Of a stretch of 39,345 nucleotides of DNA, positions 5,131 through 28,520 are shown one piece after another; position 1 is the stretch's first letter, and every line of letters starts with the position of its first letter. The stretch comes from Myxococcales bacterium (GTDB lineage: Bacteria > Myxococcota_A > Polyangia > Fen-1088). The stretch is taken from positions 1 through 39,345 of the forward strand of contig JANXXE010000194.1 of NCBI GenBank assembly GCA_025350815.1, written 5' to 3'. Made by a program: the position numbers and the translations under genes. The notes under the pieces are model-generated. The model searched no databases, had not been told where the DNA came from, and saw only the letters and a program-made list of their open reading frames with translations.

Positions 5131-5309
5131 GGCGCCAGGATTCTGCCACGGGCGGGGGCCGTCAAGCCGATGACGGTGACAACGGCGACGACGATCCCGC
5201 CGCGCTGCATTTTTGGGCGGTTTCTGCCGATTTCATCCTGCGCAACCGGGTGCAAGGTGGCAGAATGTAGGAACAGTCGTCGCCCGGGCCAGCGAGGTGA
5301 AGCGGTCGG

Positions 5310-6134
5310 ATGTTATTCGATTCATTTCTCGGACACGCGAAGGCGAGGCCCAGCCGGGTCAGGCAGGGTTCCTACGCCTTGTCGGCGGGCCTGCACGGGT
5401 TGCTGGTTCTGGCCTGCGTGTTGTCCTGGCTGCACCAGCGCCACATCAAGATGGGGCTTGGTGAAGAATCGCGCAGCCCGGCTGTCGCTGTCTCGTTCTT
5501 CGGGCACGCAGGAGGGATCGGCAGCGCCAGTGGGTTGGTGGCGCCGGGTCTCGACCGGCCGAAGCCGGCGGCGCGCGGACAGAATCACCCCTCCCCACGC
5601 CGACCAACGATTCTGACACGACCCGTGCTGGCCACGGTGGAACCGCCGAAGCGCAGCGCCATCGACGGCGAAGCCGAGGACGACAGCGAAGTCGAGGGTG
5701 CCCACGGCGACCAGAACGCAGACAGCGACAACGACAATCCCCAAGATGGGACAACCGGCGCCATTGCTCGGACTGGTGCGGGTGGTCCCGGCGCGGGTGG
5801 CGAGGGCCAAGCTGCAGCGGCGAGCCCACGCCGATCGCTGACGGGCGCCCCGTACGTCTCCACCGAGGAAGCGACCTACCTGCGAACCTTCGAGGACATC
5901 CCCGGCATTCCCGATCAACTGAAGGTGCCCAACAGCACCTATCTGGTCGCGCTCGAGGTCTGCGTGTCCCAAGATGGCCACGTCGACGAGGTGGCGGTGC
6001 GCGAGCGGGCCGCGCCCGCGCTGGATCAGCTGCTGGTAATGAAGGCCATGACCTGGCGTTACCGCCCGCGTCTGATTGGCGGCATCGCCTCGGCCTTCTG
6101 CCACACGATGCGCCTGCGCTACGAAACGCAGTGA
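5310..6134 (+). CDS. TonB-like energy-transducer protein
   Basis: The 274-residue protein has a short cytoplasmic N-terminus and one membrane segment at about residues 23-41. A long, low-complexity periplasmic linker rich in Asp, Gly and Ala follows (about 60-180). The C-terminal domain at about 185-274 ends in MTWRYRPRLIGG and CHTMRLRYE, the pattern of the TonB C-terminal fold that touches outer-membrane receptors or other partners. The ATG follows a GAGGTG ribosome site. No ExbB, ExbD or TonB-dependent receptor is encoded nearby, so this is an orphan TonB-type protein and the partner is unknown. Its TGA overlaps a possible GTG start of the next gene, so the two may be cotranscribed. Confidence 0.78.
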   Translation: MLFDSFLGHAKARPSRVRQGSYALSAGLHGLLVLACVLSWLHQRHIKMGLGEESRSPAVAVSFFGHAGGIGSASGLVAPGLDRPKPAARGQNHPSPRRPTILTRPVLATVEPPKRSAIDGEAEDDSEVEGAHGDQNADSDNDNPQDGTTGAIARTGAGGPGAGGEGQAAAASPRRSLTGAPYVSTEEATYLRTFEDIPGIPDQLKVPNSTYLVALEVCVSQDGHVDEVAVRERAAPALDQLLVMKAMTWRYRPRLIGGIASAFCHTMRLRYETQ

Positions 6135-6160
6135 CCCCGAAGCGCGCTAAACTGCAGGGC

Positions 6161-6394
6161 ATGAGCAAGGACGCGGAACGGCGACAGCGCGCCCAGGCGA
6201 GACGGTCAACGGCCATTCTTCACAGGTCGCATCTTGGACCCAGAGAGGCCGACCTATCGCCGATCGATGGCGCCGAGGCCATCTCGTTGGTTGCCCGCCT
6301 GACGCGCGAAAGCTGGAGTCTGGCGGGACTGCCGAACCCGACATACACGCGACGGGAGATCCCTTGCCGACTGGTTCCCGGTCGCCTGACATGA
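6161..6394 (+). CDS. Small conserved protein paired with a nucleotidyltransferase (antitoxin-like)
   Basis: This 77-residue basic protein has a charged, probably helical N-terminus (MSKDAERRQRAQARR) and a second part with the pattern GAEAISLVARLTRESWSLAG. Its stop codon overlaps the ATG of the nucleotidyltransferase gene (ATGA at 6391-6394), which implies translational coupling. From memory, small proteins with this second motif tend to lie directly upstream of nucleotidyltransferase-fold genes, and I infer an antitoxin or partner role. The start at ATG 6161 is my choice; GTG 6131, which overlaps the TonB stop by GTGA, would add 10 residues. The biochemical function is unknown. Confidence 0.65.
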   Translation: MSKDAERRQRAQARRSTAILHRSHLGPREADLSPIDGAEAISLVARLTRESWSLAGLPNPTYTRREIPCRLVPGRLT

Positions 6395-9779: not shown

Positions 9780-10997
9780 TCAGCGCACCAGCCACAGCTG
9801 GTGGGACTCGAAGGCCGCCGGCGGCACGGGCGCGAACGATCGCTGCGGCTGACCGAAGAAATAGCCCTGCATCAGATCGCAGCCCAGATCCGCCAGCGTG
9901 TCACGCTCGCCGCGCGTCTCGATGCCTTCGCAAATGACACCGATGCCCAGTTCGCGACACAGAGTACTCATCGACTGGACCAGCTTGCGCTTGGTGGCGT
10001 CCTGGTCGACGTCGCGCACGATCGACATGTCCAGCTTGACAATGTCCGGGTGAATCAACGCGAAGGTCGACAGCCCGGCGTAACCCGCGCCCAGATCATC
10101 CACCGCCAGCCGGAAACCGAGCGCCCTCAACTGTGCGAGGCGCGGCCGCAGATCGGTGAAACGGTCCAGCGACGCGCGTTCGGTGATTTCCAGGACCACG
10201 CGGGCCGCGACCTGCGACAGCGGCGCCCCGGCGGCAAACAGGTCGTCGTCAGCCAGATCATCCGGATGCAGGTTGACGAACAGGTCCACACCGGCGGGCG
10301 CCCGATCCGCGGACGCCGCAACTGCCTGGCGAATCGCACGGCCGAGTTCCAGTTGCCGACCCAGACGTTCTGCGACTGCGAACAGCTCGTCGGGGCGGGC
10401 CAGGGACGGCTCGCCATTGCGGACCAGCGCCTCGTAACCCAGCACCGATGCCTTCGACCAGCGCACGATGGGCTGATACACCATGCCGATCGACGCGACC
10501 GCCCGATCGAAACGGCCGCTCTCGCTGGCGCGATCCTGCATCTGGCTTGCGGCGTGACCGTACAGCTCGTAGGCCAGCCGTTGCGCAGCGGCGATTCGTC
10601 GCAGCCGGACGCCTTCTTCGACCACCTTCAAGAATGCCTCGGGCTCGAAGGGTTTGACCAGGTACCGAAGGGCGCCGTACTCGACGGCCTTCATGGCGGT
10701 GTCCAGCGCCGGCCCGCCGGTCATCAGCACCACCGGCACGTCAGGCGCGCGCTCGCGCACCATCTTGAGAACCGTCAGGCCATCCGTCCCCGGCATGGCG
10801 ATGTCGCAAATCACGACATCGAAGGATTGCGACAGCAGCCGCTCGGCAACCGCTGCCCCGTCCGACACGCAGTCGACCTCGTAATCGCGCAACGCCAGGG
10901 TCCGCTGGTAGGCGCGCAGGAAATTGGGGTCGTCATCGACCAGCAGCACGCGCCCCTTCGTCGCAGGGCTATCTGTGGTTTGTGCGCTGTCAGGCAA
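9780..10997 (-). CDS. REC-EAL response regulator, cyclic-di-GMP phosphodiesterase
   Basis: This 405-residue protein has two domains. The receiver (about 15-130) has acidic residues D21-D23, phosphoacceptor D65 in VVICDIAMPG and K115 in YLVKPF. The EAL domain (about 165-395) keeps the residues needed for cyclic-di-GMP hydrolysis: E189 of the EAL motif, N242, E270 of EITER, D300/D301 of DDLGAGYAG, K321, E357 of EGIET and Q377. It should therefore be an active phosphodiesterase controlled by phosphorylation. The start is TTG 10997, preceded by GGAG at a good distance. No partner histidine kinase lies beside it; the kinase-like array at 23122 is on the other strand about 12 kb away. It faces the thioredoxin-TPR gene tail to tail with three bases between. 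Confidence 0.9.
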   Translation of the reverse strand: MPDSAQTTDSPATKGRVLLVDDDPNFLRAYQRTLALRDYEVDCVSDGAAVAERLLSQSFDVVICDIAMPGTDGLTVLKMVRERAPDVPVVLMTGGPALDTAMKAVEYGALRYLVKPFEPEAFLKVVEEGVRLRRIAAAQRLAYELYGHAASQMQDRASESGRFDRAVASIGMVYQPIVRWSKASVLGYEALVRNGEPSLARPDELFAVAERLGRQLELGRAIRQAVAASADRAPAGVDLFVNLHPDDLADDDLFAAGAPLSQVAARVVLEITERASLDRFTDLRPRLAQLRALGFRLAVDDLGAGYAGLSTFALIHPDIVKLDMSIVRDVDQDATKRKLVQSMSTLCRELGIGVICEGIETRGERDTLADLGCDLMQGYFFGQPQRSFAPVPPAAFESHQLWLVR

Positions 10998-21899: not shown

Positions 21900-22427
21900 T
21901 CACTCCAGGAACCGATCTTGCCATTCGGGCGGCGCCGAAGGGCAGCTGTCGTACTTGCCCCACACGCGGTAGCGCAGGCGAGCGAACACCCGGTAGCCGG
22001 CGTCGCGGATGAACCGCGGTAGCAACAACAGGACGGCCAGAGCGGACCACGGCGGCGGCAGGTGCCGACACAGCGTCAGGGCGGCCGTCGACCGCGACAG
22101 CAACCGTTCGCCGGGTTGCTCGAAACCATCGACCACGTACATCGTGTCGAGATCGTGCCGCGTCTGACCGTGGCGGGCCAGCACCGTTGCGGCCACGTCG
22201 CCCTGTAGCGGGGCGAAACGAAAAACGCGGCGGGCGTCCCGCGCCGCCACAAAACGCACCAGCCCGTTGCAAAATCCACAGATCCCGTCGTAAAGGACAA
22301 CCAAGGCCCGGGATGGAGATCTTGCGATCACACCGCGACAATAGCGGCTCGGCAGGCGCGCGGCCAGGTGCCGCGTCATGACAATCGCGATGCGCGGATG
22401 ATTCGCCCCCAGTCCCACCGGAGACAT
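21900..22427 (-). CDS. DCC-family thiol-disulfide oxidoreductase-like protein
   Basis: The frame gives 175 residues. The family signature YDGICGFCN contains the CxxC pair (C50, C53 of the longest form). It is followed by the usual pattern VRFVAARDARRVFRFAPLQG and, in the C-terminal half, RHLPPPWSALAVLLLLPRFIRDAGYRVFARLRYRVWG, all typical of DCC (DUF393) proteins. These are predicted thiol-disulfide oxidoreductases of unknown partner. The true start is uncertain: ATG 22427, ATG 22379 and GTG 22331 are all in frame and none has a good ribosome site. The family usually begins close to the YDG motif, which favours one of the later starts and would end its overlap with the GluQRS fragment. Confidence 0.83.
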   Translation of the reverse strand: MSPVGLGANHPRIAIVMTRHLAARLPSRYCRGVIARSPSRALVVLYDGICGFCNGLVRFVAARDARRVFRFAPLQGDVAATVLARHGQTRHDLDTMYVVDGFEQPGERLLSRSTAALTLCRHLPPPWSALAVLLLLPRFIRDAGYRVFARLRYRVWGKYDSCPSAPPEWQDRFLE

Positions 22428-23054
22428 GCACTTTGGCTACTGGCGACGGGTCGTGCGTTTCCGTGCGCCTGTTCCCGCGGCGACGTCGGTCGCGCCGTCT
22501 CTGCGCCGCACGACAACGAAGAAGGGCCCCGGTACCCCGGCACGTGTCGGGCACTGGGGCCGGACGAGGTGACAGGCCGGGCGCGCGCGGCGGGTCGACG
22601 GCCCGCTATCCGTTTCGTCGGCAACGGCGAGCGCATCGCCTTTGAGGACGATTTCGTCCTGCGCCGGGCTGACGGCGTGGCCGCCTACCAACTGGCGGTC
22701 GTCGACGACGACGGCGCCATGGCCATCGGTCAGGTGGTGCGCGGTAGCGATCTGCTGCGATCCACGCCCCGGCAGATTGCGATTTATCGCGCGCTCGATC
22801 TGCCTGTCCCCCGCTTCGCCCATGTGCCGCTGGTCCTGGCGCCTGGTGGCAAACGGCTGGCCAAGCGGACACGCCCGTCGTCGCTTGCCGAGCTGCGCGC
22901 CGCGGGCATGACGCCCGAGGAAATCATCGGGGCGCTGGCCGCGTCGGCGGGACTGGGCGACGTGGCAAGACCGGTCCGACCGCGCGATTTGATCAAGGGA
23001 TTCGCATTGCCACGCGTCCACCGCGAGCCGGTCGCGTTGCGACTGCCGCGCTAG
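22368..23054 (+). CDS. GluQRS-like protein lacking the N-terminal HIGH half (probable pseudogene)
   Basis: The frame gives 228 residues from GTG 22368 (ATG 22398 is also in frame). It matches the second part of glutamyl-Q tRNA(Asp) synthetase: the zinc ligands C33, C35, Y56 and C60 (PCACSR, YPGTC), the motif FVLRRADGVAAYQLAVV, VVRGSDLLRSTPRQ, HVPLVLAP and KRLAKR in the KMSKS position. A complete enzyme has about 290-310 residues and starts with a Rossmann half bearing the HIGH-like motif. Here about 80 residues are missing, and no plus-strand frame upstream supplies them; the region is occupied by the DCC gene on the other strand. The stretch between QS and GRAFPC is also about four residues short. 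It is therefore probably inactive. Confidence 0.72.
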   Translation: MPRHDNRDARMIRPQSHRRHALWLLATGRAFPCACSRGDVGRAVSAPHDNEEGPRYPGTCRALGPDEVTGRARAAGRRPAIRFVGNGERIAFEDDFVLRRADGVAAYQLAVVDDDGAMAIGQVVRGSDLLRSTPRQIAIYRALDLPVPRFAHVPLVLAPGGKRLAKRTRPSSLAELRAAGMTPEEIIGALAASAGLGDVARPVRPRDLIKGFALPRVHREPVALRLPR

Positions 23055-23121: not shown

Positions 23122-24351
23122 GTGGAGACTTCGACCGCGCACCCGTGGTTCGAAACGCTCCGGGGATTGGGCGTGACTTTACCCGGGCATCGCCGGGTCT
23201 TGCTCGTCGACGACGAGGCGGACAATCTGGATGTCCTGCGCCTGCTACTGGACGAGGAATACGAAATTCACGTCGCCACCAACGGGCACGAGGCGCTGGC
23301 GACGCTGGAGCGCGTGGGCGAGTTCGGGGTGATCATCAGCGATCAGCGAATGCGGGGCATGACGGGGGTCGCGTTGCTGACCGAGTTTTCGCGCCGCGCC
23401 CCCGACACCGTGCGCATGATTCTGACCGCGTATTCCGACGTCGAGCCCATCGTCGCCGCGGTGAACGAGGGCAGCGTGTACCGCTTCTTCCTCAAACCGT
23501 GGAATCCGCATGAGATGCGCGCGGCGGTCGCGGACGGACTGTGGCTGTACCAGTCACGCGCGGCCCTGGAACGTCTGGTCGATCTGCAGGGCGAGCGCAA
23601 AAAGGCGCTGTCAGAAACGGTCGAACGCCTGCGCCGCACCGAGGCCGAACTGGTCGCCTCGGAGCGTATGACCACCATGGGGCGTCTGACGTCGGGGATC
23701 ACCCACAACATCAGGAACAGTCTGACCGTGATGATGAACCTGCTGGAGATGGTGCAGCAGCAACCGACTGAAACGTCTGTGCTGTGGGCGGCGCAGAAGG
23801 CGTTCCGGAAACTTGGGGCCCTCATCAATCTGGTCGGCGACATCAATTCACTGGCCCGGGGCGAGTTGCACAAGGTCGTGCGCCTGCCGGTTGAAGTGGG
23901 CCCATTCGTCGAGCAGTTGCTGCGCCTGTTTCGGCTGGAGCCACAGGGGCATTCCCGCCCCGTGCAAGTGACCATCGCCGCCGGTGCCCGCGTGCTGGCG
24001 ATGGATCCGACCAAAGTCAGACAGGCCACAATGGCCCTGCTGCGCAACGCCGCTCAAGCCAGCCCCGAAGGCGCGGGGATCGAACTGGGCATCACGGCGG
24101 ACGCCCCGACAAACACCGCCATCTTCGAGGTTCGCGACAACGGTGGCGGCATGGACGCTTCCACGGTGACCCGCGCGGCACAGCCCTTCTTCAGCGCGTT
24201 CGAGCCACGCGGCCTGGGACTGGGATTGGAAATCGCGCGCGTCGTCGCCGAAGGGCACGGTGGACGCCTGGAACTGCTGTCGGCGCCAGGCAGCGGCACG
24301 ATTGCCCGCCTGCATCTCACCGCGATCGATCCCCTGGCGGACAATCCGTGA
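23122..24351 (+). CDS. REC-histidine kinase hybrid (array gene 1, intact motifs)
   Basis: This soluble protein has 409 residues. The receiver (about 24-140) has D30/D31, phosphoacceptor D74 (IISDQRM) and K125 (FFLKPW). A coiled coil (about 145-185) leads into a DHp-like segment with the phosphoacceptor-type H195 in TSGITHNIRNSL. The ATPase domain (about 290-400) has N309 (LLRNAAQA), D339 (DNGGGM) and the G2 box GLGLGL. All key residues for phosphoryl transfer are present. There is no sensor or membrane segment, so input probably comes by phosphorylation of the receiver. The start is GTG 23122. Its stop overlaps the GTG of array gene 2 by four bases, implying equal, coupled synthesis. Confidence 0.86.
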   Translation: METSTAHPWFETLRGLGVTLPGHRRVLLVDDEADNLDVLRLLLDEEYEIHVATNGHEALATLERVGEFGVIISDQRMRGMTGVALLTEFSRRAPDTVRMILTAYSDVEPIVAAVNEGSVYRFFLKPWNPHEMRAAVADGLWLYQSRAALERLVDLQGERKKALSETVERLRRTEAELVASERMTTMGRLTSGITHNIRNSLTVMMNLLEMVQQQPTETSVLWAAQKAFRKLGALINLVGDINSLARGELHKVVRLPVEVGPFVEQLLRLFRLEPQGHSRPVQVTIAAGARVLAMDPTKVRQATMALLRNAAQASPEGAGIELGITADAPTNTAIFEVRDNGGGMDASTVTRAAQPFFSAFEPRGLGLGLEIARVVAEGHGGRLELLSAPGSGTIARLHLTAIDPLADNP

Positions 24352-25550
24352 GCGCCAACGACGCGCGCGCCGCCGTGGGGGCGTACCTGGCGGCCGCCCC
24401 CCTGCCTTTCAGTGTCCTGCTGGCACCGGCGGCCGCCCCGGTATGCGCGGAGGCGCTGGCGCTGCGGGGCGCCCCGCAAGGAATGTCGGTGCGGACGTTC
24501 GAGGTGGGTCGGACGATTCTGGACGGGCCCACCATCGTGGTGCTGGCCCCGGAAGATTTGCACGGGCCGCATCGGGAGGCCCTGGCCAGGCTGGCCCGCG
24601 CGGCGCTGCCCGGACGATCCATTCTGGTCGGCGGCGGGCAAGACCGCGACATTCTGCTGCACGCTATCAACAACTGGCGCGTGTACCGGGTCGTGCCGAC
24701 GAGAACCCTGCCGTCGGGTTTGCTGGATGCGCTTCAAAAGACCTACGAGGCCATGCAGGTCGAACACGGCCTCGAACGCGCGGCAACGGCCCTGCGCGAG
24801 GAGAACGCCCGTCTGGAGGCTGCCCTCGCCACCCTCGAGGAAACACAGGGCGAGCTTCTACACGCCGAACGACTGGCGACGCTCGGCCGGGTGACCAGCG
24901 GCCTCATCCCGGTCATTGCGGGGTATCTGGGCGACTTGGAGGAATTTCGAACTGTGATGGGGTCGCGGCTCGGCACCACGGATCCCAGTATCGCCGAGCT
25001 GTTGGGATACGCGTTCACGGGAGTGCGAACGCTGAACGCAATGCTCGATGAGATTCGTGGTTTCGCCGAAAGCCGGCCCGAGTCTTATCGATGGGAGCGG
25101 GAGGATCTCGACCCGCTGGTGAACTTCGCGGTGTCCTTCGGCCGCTTCGATCCCCTGAGCCAGCAGCGCGTGCTGCACGCGGACCTGCGTTCGGGCGCAC
25201 AGATTCGGGGCGACTGTAATCGCCTGTACCAGGTCCTGATCAACCTGTTGCGCAACGCCTTTCAGGCGACCGGCACCGGCGGACGCATTGACGTGCGCAC
25301 CTACGTCGAAGGCGCCGATGCGGTGATCGAGGTCGCCAATCAGGGCGATCCCATCCCTGCCGAGGTCCAGGCGCGGCTGTTCCAGCCGTTCTTCACCACC
25401 AAGGGCGACCGGGGTATCGGCCTTGGGCTATCCCTGTGTCGGGCCACGATCGAGCGCCACGGCGGCACCATAACCTGCACCAGCGCCCCGGGCCTGCCGA
25501 CCTGCTTCCGCATCCGCCTGCCGACCGCGCAAGAAATTGATGCCGCCTGA
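24348..25550 (+). CDS. Pseudoreceiver-pseudokinase (array gene 2, Pro in place of His)
   Basis: This 400-residue protein is a paralogue of array gene 1 throughout. The receiver-like N-terminus aligns (compare SILVGGGQDRDILLHAINNW with MILTAYSDVEPIVAAVNEG of gene 1), but the acidic pair is replaced by LLAPAA, the phosphoacceptor region reads VVLAPEDL and the lysine site is RVVPTR. In the DHp region, GRVTSGLIPVIAG has P188 where H195 should be. The ATPase domain looks usable: N303 is kept, F-box LFQPFFTTK and G2 box GIGLGL are present, though the DNGGG motif is NQGDP. It may bind ATP and act as a non-phosphorylated partner, for example in a heterodimer with gene 1. A GTGA overlap couples them. 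Confidence 0.83.
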   Translation: MSANDARAAVGAYLAAAPLPFSVLLAPAAAPVCAEALALRGAPQGMSVRTFEVGRTILDGPTIVVLAPEDLHGPHREALARLARAALPGRSILVGGGQDRDILLHAINNWRVYRVVPTRTLPSGLLDALQKTYEAMQVEHGLERAATALREENARLEAALATLEETQGELLHAERLATLGRVTSGLIPVIAGYLGDLEEFRTVMGSRLGTTDPSIAELLGYAFTGVRTLNAMLDEIRGFAESRPESYRWEREDLDPLVNFAVSFGRFDPLSQQRVLHADLRSGAQIRGDCNRLYQVLINLLRNAFQATGTGGRIDVRTYVEGADAVIEVANQGDPIPAEVQARLFQPFFTTKGDRGIGLGLSLCRATIERHGGTITCTSAPGLPTCFRIRLPTAQEIDAA

Positions 25551-25574
25551 TTCGGCGCCTAGACTTCCCGCCGC

Positions 25575-26792
25575 ATGGAAGAGGGCGATTCGCAGTTCTG
25601 GCAGGAGGTGGTCGACGGACTCGGCATCCCCCTGCCCGCGCCCGGGCCTGTTCTTCTCATCGATGACGACCCGGAGAACCTGAGCGTCCTCGGGGCCGTG
25701 CTCGACGACGATCACGAGGTCCACCTGGCCGCCAGCGGGCCCCAGGCGCTGGCGATGCTGGAACGATTGGGTGATGTCTCCGTTGTCCTCAGCGACCAAC
25801 GCATGCCCGAGATGACGGGGCTTGAGGTTCTCGCGCAGTTCGCCCGCCGCGCGCCAGAGACGGTTCGCATGCTTGTGACCGCGTACTCGGATGTGGAACC
25901 CGTCGTCGCCGCCGTCAACCAGGGGCTGGTCCATGCGTTCTTCCTCAAGCCCTGGGATCGCCACGAGGTGCGTGCCGCTGTCGCGGATGCCATCGGCCAG
26001 CACCGGGCTCGTTCCGCGCTCCACACCCTGCTGCACACGCTGGTCGGCAAGCGCGAGGATCTTGCCCGGACGCAAGTCGAGCTCGAACGCGCGCAAGACC
26101 GTCTGCTCGGCGCAGAACGCGTCAACACGCTGGGACGCTTCACGACCGGCGTTTCCCACAGCGTGTGCAACAGCCTGGCCCTCATGTCCAGTCTGATGAC
26201 CTTCGTTCGAAAGAAGCCGCTTGGCCCCAACGCGGTCGCCACCGTCGAGCACGCCACCACTATTCTTGAGTCACTGTTGCCGGTGATTGCTGACGTGCAG
26301 ACCTTCTGCCGGGGCGAACTGGGACAGATCCACCGTTCGACCGTCGAGCCGCACGGCTTTCTTGAACGGGTGCGTGGCGCCTTCGCAGGCACGTCCCTTG
26401 GGCGTGGGCGCCGCCTGAACACGTCGGTGGACGGCAACGTGGCCTCTGTCGTCATCGATGCCGGGCGCGTGCAGCAGGCGCTGATTGCGGTGCTCGCGCA
26501 CGCCGCGGACGCCAGCGACCATGACAGACCCCTTGCCCTGCATCTGCGGCGCGGGGCAGACAACGGCTGCCGGTTCGAAATCACCTACGGCCCGGCATTT
26601 CGTTCGGACGCCAGCCGCGCCGCCGACGACGATAACGAATCCGTCACGCCCGGCCTCGGTTTCGGCATCGAAATGGCGCGAGAGATTGCCCTTGCCCACG
26701 GCGGCCGCCTGGAACTGGGCGCGCAGGTGACCCACGAGGCGCGCACGTCGCTGTGGCTGGGGCCGGCCGCCCCTAATCAGGATCGCAGGTGA
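25575..26792 (+). CDS. REC-histidine kinase-like protein with decayed ATPase (array gene 3)
   Basis: This 405-residue protein is closest to array gene 1 and shares its residue numbering. The receiver is intact: D30-D32, D74 (VLSDQRMPEM), K125 (FFLKPWD). H195 is kept in TTGVSHSVCNSL. The ATPase domain is damaged: the conserved Asn is H309 (VLAHAADA), and the adenine-binding DNGGG stretch is replaced by ITYGPAFRS, although GLGFGIEMA remains at the G2 site. It can probably receive a phosphoryl group on its receiver or histidine but not bind ATP normally. It starts 24 bases after array gene 2 and is coupled to array gene 4 by a GTGA overlap, repeating the arrangement of the first pair. Confidence 0.82.
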   Translation: MEEGDSQFWQEVVDGLGIPLPAPGPVLLIDDDPENLSVLGAVLDDDHEVHLAASGPQALAMLERLGDVSVVLSDQRMPEMTGLEVLAQFARRAPETVRMLVTAYSDVEPVVAAVNQGLVHAFFLKPWDRHEVRAAVADAIGQHRARSALHTLLHTLVGKREDLARTQVELERAQDRLLGAERVNTLGRFTTGVSHSVCNSLALMSSLMTFVRKKPLGPNAVATVEHATTILESLLPVIADVQTFCRGELGQIHRSTVEPHGFLERVRGAFAGTSLGRGRRLNTSVDGNVASVVIDAGRVQQALIAVLAHAADASDHDRPLALHLRRGADNGCRFEITYGPAFRSDASRAADDDNESVTPGLGFGIEMAREIALAHGGRLELGAQVTHEARTSLWLGPAAPNQDRR

Positions 26793-27967
26793 AAGATCTC
26801 GGCGGGATCATCGACAATTTCCTGCTGCGGCGGCCAATCCCGTTCGTCGTGTTCGTCGCACCCGCGGCGGAAAAGATGGGCGCCGCTGCCCGGGCCGCAA
26901 GCGCCGACGGACAGATCGAGGTCCGCGCGTTTGATGCGGCCAAGGCGCAGCCACCGTCGTCACCCAACATCCTGGTTCTTGCCCCGAAAGATCTCGTATC
27001 GGGCGACACCACGCGCGCGCTTCTGGCCCATGCGCGCGCCGCGCGGCCGGCACGTCCGGTGCTGTTCGGCGGCGCACGCAATCGCGACGTCCTGGTCGAC
27101 GCCATCAACACATGGCGCGTCTTCCGCGTCGTCCCCGAACAAACACCCGAGGTGCTGCGCGACGCCCTGACCCAGGCTTACCAGGCCATGTGCGTCGAGC
27201 TGACCCTGAAGCGCCTGGGCGGCGACCTCGTCGACGAGACGACGCAGCTTGAGCAGACGCTCGCCAACCTGCGCGCCACCCAGCAAAGGGTCATCGAGCT
27301 TGAACGCGGCAATGTCCTCGGGCGCGCGGCCAGCAGCCTGATGCCGGTCATCACGTCACACCTCAATGCGCTGGAAACCTTCAAGGTGATCGCATCGGCC
27401 AGTTTGCACCGCGACGATCCCGAGCTGCGCGATATGTTGACCTCCGCGTTCGAGGGCGTTGCGGCCCTGCGCACCATGCTTGAGGATCTGCTGACGTACG
27501 CAGAAAGCACCCCCGCACCTGGCAATCCAGCGGTGGTCAATCTCGACGAGACGGTGGCATCGGCGCTGGCTTTCGGTCGCTTCGATCCCTTGGCCAACGG
27601 CCGGCCGGTTCAGACCACGCTGCAATCGGGGATCGCTGTTCTCTTCGATCGCGATCGCCTGCGACAGGTCGTGTTGAACCTGCTGCGAAGCGCGTACCAG
27701 ATCGCGGCGCCGAAGGAACCGCTGACGGTGCGCACCCTGAAGAAGGGCCAGGACGGCGTGCTGGAGGTCGAAAGCAACGGCGCGCCGATCTCCGAGGACG
27801 CCCGCGCCCAGCTCTTCGATCCCGCGTTCAGGCTCGGGGGCGACGCGGGCCTGGGCCTGTCGCCCTGCCGCCTGATGGTCGAACGCTACGGTGGCTCGAT
27901 AAGCTGTATCAACGTTCCGGGTCGTGGCCCCTGCTTCCGGGTGCGGCTGCCCCGGGCGCCGTCGTAG
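26789..27967 (+). CDS. Pseudoreceiver-pseudokinase (array gene 4, Pro in place of His)
   Basis: This 392-residue protein is a paralogue of array gene 2. The receiver-like domain again lacks every catalytic residue (VFVAPAAEK, LVLAPKDL, FRVVPEQ). The DHp segment GRAASSLMPVITS has P186 at the histidine position, the same substitution as gene 2. The ATPase domain is more decayed: the Asn is S301 (LLRSAYQ), the G1 box is SNGAPI, and the G2 box is shortened to AGLGLS. ATP binding is doubtful. Retention of an open frame, GTGA coupling to gene 3 and the shared LAPxDL and LxPVI motifs suggest it is maintained as a regulatory or structural partner. Confidence 0.8.
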   Translation: MKDLGGIIDNFLLRRPIPFVVFVAPAAEKMGAAARAASADGQIEVRAFDAAKAQPPSSPNILVLAPKDLVSGDTTRALLAHARAARPARPVLFGGARNRDVLVDAINTWRVFRVVPEQTPEVLRDALTQAYQAMCVELTLKRLGGDLVDETTQLEQTLANLRATQQRVIELERGNVLGRAASSLMPVITSHLNALETFKVIASASLHRDDPELRDMLTSAFEGVAALRTMLEDLLTYAESTPAPGNPAVVNLDETVASALAFGRFDPLANGRPVQTTLQSGIAVLFDRDRLRQVVLNLLRSAYQIAAPKEPLTVRTLKKGQDGVLEVESNGAPISEDARAQLFDPAFRLGGDAGLGLSPCRLMVERYGGSISCINVPGRGPCFRVRLPRAPS

Positions 27968-27986: not shown

Positions 27987-28029
27987 AAAAAAAACCGGCG
28001 CTAGTCGTTGGAACACGACAGGCGCCGGT
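27987..28029 (-). terminator. Intrinsic terminator of the small secreted-protein gene
   Basis: Read on the minus strand, an 8-base stem ACCGGCGC / GCGCCGGT (28022-28029 with 27994-28001) encloses a second 5-base stem GTCGT/ACGAC with a short loop, and eight U residues follow (27987-27994). It begins 30 bases after the stop at 28059. It may also slow transcripts coming from array gene 4 on the plus strand, but there is no U-run in that direction. Confidence 0.85.
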
Positions 28030-28058: not shown

Positions 28059-28520
28059 CTAGTTCCCGCGCTTCGCCTCCCACGGCCTCGACTGATCCTG
28101 CCCGCCGAAATTCGACGTCTGTGTCCCCTTGATCAGGGTCCCGTCGAACTTACCAACGTAGCTGGCGACCATCTTCGTGCCGTTGCGATCGCGCTCGACC
28201 TTGAAGGACACAGCGCCGTCCTTGGCCGTCTTGCCTTCCGAAATGGCCGTGTCGCCATTGCGGCCGGAGATCGTGCCGGTCAGCTTCTCCCCTTCAACCT
28301 TGAGCGTCAGCTTGGACTCGCGAACCGCGCCGTCGCGACCTTCCATGGACCAGGTCCAGGTGCCGTTCAGGTCGGCCTTGGCGGCCCCCTTCTTGGCGTC
28401 GCCCTTGGTGTCGCCTTTGGCCTCGCCCTTTTCGGCCGGCTTCTTGTCAGCGGTAGGGGCGGCGTTGGCACGTCCGCCCAATGTCACAGCAACCATCACT
28501 ACGAAAAGACCTCTCAACAT
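28059..28520 (-). CDS. Small secreted beta-barrel-like protein
   Basis: This protein of 153 residues has a clear signal peptide (cleavage near GRANA). A Lys/Ala/Gly/Asp-rich linker (about 23-50) includes a repeated GD(T/A)K pattern. The C-terminal domain begins LNGTWTWSMEGRDG and continues with alternating strands (LTLKVEGEKLTGTISG, VSFKVERDRNG), a pattern seen in small lipocalin-like or DUF-type barrel proteins of unknown ligand. The gene has a good ribosome site (GAGGAGG), its own promoter and its own terminator, so it is monocistronic. It is divergent from the M16 peptidase gene, with 89 bases between the two starts. Confidence 0.8.
   Translation of the reverse strand: MLRGLFVVMVAVTLGGRANAAPTADKKPAEKGEAKGDTKGDAKKGAAKADLNGTWTWSMEGRDGAVRESKLTLKVEGEKLTGTISGRNGDTAISEGKTAKDGAVSFKVERDRNGTKMVASYVGKFDGTLIKGTQTSNFGGQDQSRPWEAKRGN

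Follow-up and report, generated by a model that had tools for sequence, protein, structure and literature searches.

Adjacent receiver–histidine kinase paralogs with complementary active-site losses suggest a kinase of two unlike halves

The window analysed here is a 39,345-nt stretch of DNA from a Myxococcales bacterium, whose gene content also hints at a myxobacterium-like lineage. Four consecutive genes in it (A1, B1, A2, and B2) encode related proteins with the domain order of soluble receiver–histidine kinases. The features of this array are as follows.

23122–24351, plus strand: A1, 409 aa, GTG start; REC, coiled coil, DHp, CA
24348–24351, plus strand: overlap GTGA of the A1 stop and the B1 start, with putative translational coupling
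24348–25550, plus strand: B1, 400 aa, GTG start; pseudo-REC, coiled coil, His-less DHp, CA
25551–25574, plus strand: spacer of 24 bases between the pairs
25575–26792, plus strand: A2, 405 aa, ATG start; layout as A1, CA degenerate
26789–26792, plus strand: overlap GTGA of the A2 stop and the B2 start
26789–27967, plus strand: B2, 392 aa, GTG start; layout as B1, CA also degenerate
27994–28029, no strand assigned: terminator-like hairpin (z −4.0) closing the four-gene run and shared with the convergent gene at 28059–28520

A first-pass annotation, made from the sequence alone, had described four paralogous REC–coiled-coil–DHp–ATPase genes in a row, with GTGA overlaps within the pairs and 24 bases between them. 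The overlaps and the spacer were exact, and the open reading frames, pairwise identities, Pfam, and the alignment all bore out the paralogy. A1 and A2 are 40% identical and B1 and B2 are 42% identical, whereas A1–B1 and A2–B2 share 29% and 23%, and thus the A-B-A'-B' order is real and not due to chance. Pfam detected HATPase_c in all four proteins, and Response_reg was recognised only in the two A proteins. Directly upstream of the array is a gene for a class I tRNA-synthetase-like protein, possibly GluQ-RS (22368–23054, plus strand), and about 12 kb away a minus-strand gene (9780–10997) encodes a response regulator carrying the c-di-GMP phosphodiesterase domain EAL. A neighbouring gene encodes an M16 peptidase; in relatives from the same family, this gene has different neighbours, and the array may have been either inserted here or lost there.

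Both A proteins keep the receiver Asp74 and the DHp His195, and both residues are lost in the B proteins (Pro68 and Pro188 in B1, Pro66 and Pro186 in B2), as had been read at first pass. A1 also has N-box Asn309 and G1 Asp339, together with the changes typical of A proteins, namely replacement of the first N-box Asn by Ala and loss of the ATP-lid Thr/Lys. B1 retained N-box Asn303 and a TTK lid, while its G1 Asp is replaced by Asn331. In A2, the Mg-binding N-box Asn and the G1 Asp are replaced by His309 and Thr337; in B2 they are replaced by Ser301 and Ser329, and the lid is lost. Neither member of pair 2 has an intact ATPase. The first-pass reading that the A proteins keep the Asp and the His is right, but A2 has itself lost ATPase residues.

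A structure of B1 was predicted with the four window proteins as the only input, at moderate confidence (pLDDT 68, with about 55 in the receiver part; pTM 0.45). When this model was compared with the PDB, the top six matches were all full-length LvrB chains (8vc9 first) over about 400 aligned columns, and DivL was also among the matches. In profile comparison, B aligned to A with the pseudo-receiver included. A and B both have the REC-DHp-CA layout of Rec-controlled kinases of the LvrB/PhcR type, which was recognised in A by Pfam and in B by the profile comparison with A and the fold match to LvrB.

Whole-genome searches of about 600 distinct genomes for adjacent pairs, which the first-pass annotation had proposed, found 14 A-B pairs in 13 genomes of six families. 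B is thus not a randomly decaying gene confined to one genome. The pair-bearing genomes are the window's own (G000), G034, three genera of family f11, three genera of f59, four species of one genus of f47, and G477. The distribution is uneven. A pair is present in 3 of the 108 f11 genomes and in 3 of the 52 genomes of the class containing f59, where there is one further, divergent pair, and it is absent from all 17 other members of the family of the window's genome. In all 14 pairs A comes first and B follows immediately. Where the two are separate genes, they overlap by 1–11 bases or are at most 3 bases apart, and in G226 they are fused in one open reading frame of 884 aa (counted from the first ATG). 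A frameshift artefact was considered for this fusion and rejected, since stops near the junction are absent in all frames and a single indel error cannot produce such a fusion. A scan of one named genome with B1 as the single query returned ordinary kinases only, mostly 24–35% identical, and searches of phages and plasmids returned only distant kinases. In NCBIfam, neither A nor B nor the methyltransferase described below matched a specific family.

We compared the active-site residues in an alignment of the 14 pairs. The phosphoacceptor His is missing from all 14 B proteins, where it is replaced by G, A, T, S, Q, V, or P. The receiver Lys is also lost, and the receiver Asp is lost from every B except B_L126, where the corresponding alignment column shows an Asp. 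The Mg-binding Asn, the G1 Asp, and G2 are intact in 10/10 full-length B proteins outside the window (one species cluster is entered as four, and there are 11 rows if the fused copy is included). The A proteins all have the receiver Asp and Lys, and 13 of the 14 have the His. The first N-box Asn and the ATP lid are important for catalysis in the GHKL fold. This Asn is replaced by Ala or Val in 14/14 A proteins and retained in 13/13 CA-bearing B proteins. Similarly, the lid Thr/Lys is gone from all A proteins and kept (as Lys or Arg) in the CA-bearing B proteins, with B2 the sole exception. The unpaired REC-HK relatives L128, L131, and L132 retain both the Asn and the Thr/Lys. HATPase_c scores in five pairs were 55–73 bits for A versus 80–95 for B. 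Most A proteins still have the Mg-binding Asn and the G1 Asp (and G2), so their ATPase may be divergent rather than clearly dead. In canonical pairs, B has an ATPase without a His and A a His with a divergent ATPase, which would be compatible with a split kinase. Neither combines the receiver Asp, the DHp His, and the ATPase motifs in one chain. The first-pass view of B as a pseudokinase stands as far as the His and the receiver site are concerned, but B is not simply dead, since the family keeps a canonical ATPase.

Two pairs stand out. In the divergent pair of G516 (L130, G516:C192, 6216–8752), the first member combines the His with an ATPase that is destroyed, and the second has a canonical ATPase, no His, and Glu for the receiver Asp; fully reciprocal loss was seen in this pair only. 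In G477 (L129, G477:C247, 2963–5225), the His of A is replaced by Gly and B has no CA domain at all. The G477 pair therefore cannot be a split kinase, and it is apparently a non-catalytic version that acts without a kinase step of its own.

In two trees, the A proteins formed one clade (support 88/90 and 94/97) and the B proteins another (100/100), with the second member of the G516 pair as sister to B (98–99/98). A and B are thus two old paralogous clades that separated once, long ago, and not sister lineages within the array, as a duplication of the pair predicts. A_w1 and A_w2, the two A proteins of the window, were sisters (99/96 and 98/96), as were B_w1 and B_w2 (98/95), and therefore the pair was duplicated in this genome later than the split of A from B; the tandem duplication of a pair that had been read from the gene order is upheld. 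The branches of A2 and B2 are about twice as long as those of the first-pair members, which is consistent with the loss of ATPase residues in both. A and B have travelled together as pairs, and in f11 their sub-topologies match. Among four species of one genus, dN/dS was 0.05–0.12 for B and 0.07–0.10 for A. Within B, the pseudo-receiver (0.03–0.15) and the DHp domain (0–0.07) were equally constrained. Purifying selection on B is strong, at a dN/dS of about 0.1.

The absence of a membrane sensor, noted at first pass, did not hold beyond the array. In G034, G482, and f47, two genes come after the pair: one encodes a PilZ-like/SAM-methyltransferase protein (490–523 aa), and the other encodes a membrane kinase of about 890 aa arranged as sensor-HK-REC-HK. 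The window's genome also encodes a methyltransferase and an HK-REC-HK, both on contig C3 and unlinked to the array in the draft assembly, and this HK-REC-HK has kept both of its His residues as well as the receiver Asp. The place of A-B ahead of the same methyltransferase and HK-REC-HK genes is taken in f37 by a single REC-HK, which presumably is the unsplit state. In G226 (L105, G226:C309, 3457–6906), a 1150-aa PilZ/hydrolase-like/SAM-methyltransferase protein is encoded between the fused A-B and the HK-REC-HK genes. In G227 (L104, G227:C556, 9568–13757), genes for an AMP-binding enzyme, a shikimate-dehydrogenase-like protein, and a B12-radical-SAM protein lie between A-B and a convergent HK-REC-HK gene; these enzymes may make a signal molecule. 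In G477, a PilZ-type gene begins within a few bases 3' of B. The linked methyltransferases are 28–32% identical to the enzyme of a P. graminis plasmid operon, which has the order methyltransferase-kinase-regulator-regulator as in Ralstonia phcBSRQ (PMC8578825), and the sensor region of the linked kinase matches the kinase of that operon (best E about 1e-10). Moreover, the HK-REC-HK proteins of the relatives strongly matched the LvrA model, at scores below its curated cut-off. With a PhcB-like methyltransferase and a multi-TM sensor kinase linked to the pair in G034, G482, and f47, and to the single REC-HK in f37, the relatives have a Phc-type linkage, and by homology the linked genes may form a signal-molecule system.

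Histidine kinases work as homodimers, and their activation breaks the symmetry of the dimer. In Leptospira, LvrA (HK-REC-HK) phosphorylates LvrB (REC-HK) and raises its autokinase activity (PMC5863495). Phosphorylation of the LvrB receiver leads to coiled-coil formation and a break of symmetry that frees one ATPase to phosphorylate the His, and the activated dimer ends up hemi-phosphorylated and asymmetric (PMC13269768). LvrB has the full REC-DHp-CA fold in common with A and B, and the HK-REC-HK of the relatives resembles LvrA. However, each chain of the LvrB homodimer carries every site (PMC13269768), whereas A-B distributes the sites over two paralogs and has a linked methyltransferase gene. 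The asymmetry that LvrB reaches only on activation seems to be fixed in two genes in the A-B pair. The phcBSRQ operon of Ralstonia likewise encodes a methyltransferase, a membrane kinase, and the soluble REC-HK PhcR (PMC8578825), three components that are also linked in relatives with A-B. Unlike the paired A and B, PhcR stands alone, and PhcQ is devoid of an ATPase; furthermore, the A-B-linked kinase is an HK-REC-HK and the A-B-linked methyltransferase has a PilZ-like N-terminus.

Phosphoacceptor and catalytic domain are known to reside on separate, complex-forming proteins in CheA3/CheA4 and Hik36/Hik43 (PMC3591291, PMC7656254). The characterised split kinases that we found are of the CheA type and are split by domain loss, whereas A and B both retain the full HisKA-type layout, and what sets them apart is reciprocal loss of single residues. 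B resembles DivL and other pseudo-histidine kinases in being a HisKA-type protein without phosphoacceptor His that is kept as a partner, but it differs from DivL in its canonical ATPase, its REC-derived N-terminus, and its obligate paralogous neighbour. On its layout, A belongs to the Rec-controlled kinases, B falls outside the catalytic definition, and the pair would work like a split kinase. At first pass, no described family with this layout was known; the architecture of A is in fact known from LvrB and PhcR, while for the paired, reciprocally degenerate form we found no description in the open-licence papers searched.

Two neighbouring enzymes with complementary losses that are kept adjacent suggest a kinase of two unlike halves. 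The status of B as the partner of A, proposed at first pass, is well supported, since B is found in 13 genomes, always beside A, with low dN/dS and one natural fusion. The pairing, the joint inheritance, the duplication, the residue losses, and the selection on B are observed, and the heterodimer, catalysis in trans, the direction of phosphate flow, the signal, and the output are inferred. On balance, we lean towards A and B being subunits of one asymmetric, LvrB-like heterodimer in which the ATPase of B phosphorylates the His of A, with Phc-type input. In this model, an ancestral LvrB-like REC-DHp-CA kinase would have duplicated. The input and phosphoacceptor sites (the receiver Asp and the DHp His) would have stayed with A, whose ATPase drifted, and B would have retained the ATPase while its receiver site and His were lost. 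The two would join via the coiled coil and the DHp domains into an asymmetric heterodimer. A membrane HK-REC-HK with a PhcS-like sensor would phosphorylate the receiver of A and thereby release the kinase, the His of A would be phosphorylated by the CA domain of B, and the output would pass to further response regulators. Pair 1 would retain the catalytic half (B1). Since A2 keeps its Asp and His and pair 2 has no intact ATPase, pair 2 probably either works with pair 1 or serves in phosphotransfer, as a phosphatase, or as a decoy. We hold more tentatively the broader idea of an obligate heterodimeric HisKA-type kinase family, derived from a duplicated Rec-controlled kinase by reciprocal site loss, set in a Phc-like operon, and represented here by a four-subunit set with one catalytic half.

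Some observations count against a split kinase. A may still autophosphorylate, since its ATPase retains the Mg-binding Asn, and the G1 Asp is changed to Asn in B1 itself. Moreover, window pair 2 and the G477 pair argue against catalysis in trans being universal. In view of these cases, the main alternative is a non-catalytic role for B as an ATP-binding pseudokinase in a heterodimer with A, in which A phosphorylates its own His and the ATP-loaded CA domain and pseudo-receiver of B tune its switching allosterically. This would account for the persistence of incompetent pairs and for the Mg-binding Asn, G1 Asp, and G2 of most A lineages, and pseudo-receivers and DivL-type pseudokinases act in this way (PMC12632262), DivL being a fold match of B1. 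Nevertheless, we consider it less likely, as it leaves unexplained both the consistent loss from A of the first N-box Asn and the lid Thr/Lys that B retains, and the fully reciprocal G516 pair.

DHp domains usually homodimerise, and A and B might instead be separate homodimers of one operon, with B serving another response regulator as phosphatase or adaptor, and with adjacency reflecting only co-expression. Adjacency by itself is compatible with this, but the invariable A-then-B order, the complementary losses, and the natural single-chain A-B fusion in G226 make it improbable. That the B genes are functionless, decaying duplicates of A, as the loss of several active-site residues might suggest, can be dismissed as refuted for the family by a 100/100 clade in six families, a dN/dS of about 0.1, and frames that are open throughout.

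If two genes encode the asymmetry between A and B, the use of each subunit's receiver, ATPase, and His could be tested directly, as could phosphorylation in trans. Split and bifunctional kinases have been predicted to give switch-like, bistable signalling (PMC3591291). Moreover, Phc signalling has been studied in proteobacteria, and the Phc-like signal system linked to A-B lies outside them. In the f47 genus (L122, G536, 5139–6305), a gene for a REC-HD-GYP-type response regulator is divergent from A, and an output via c-di-GMP is possible there.
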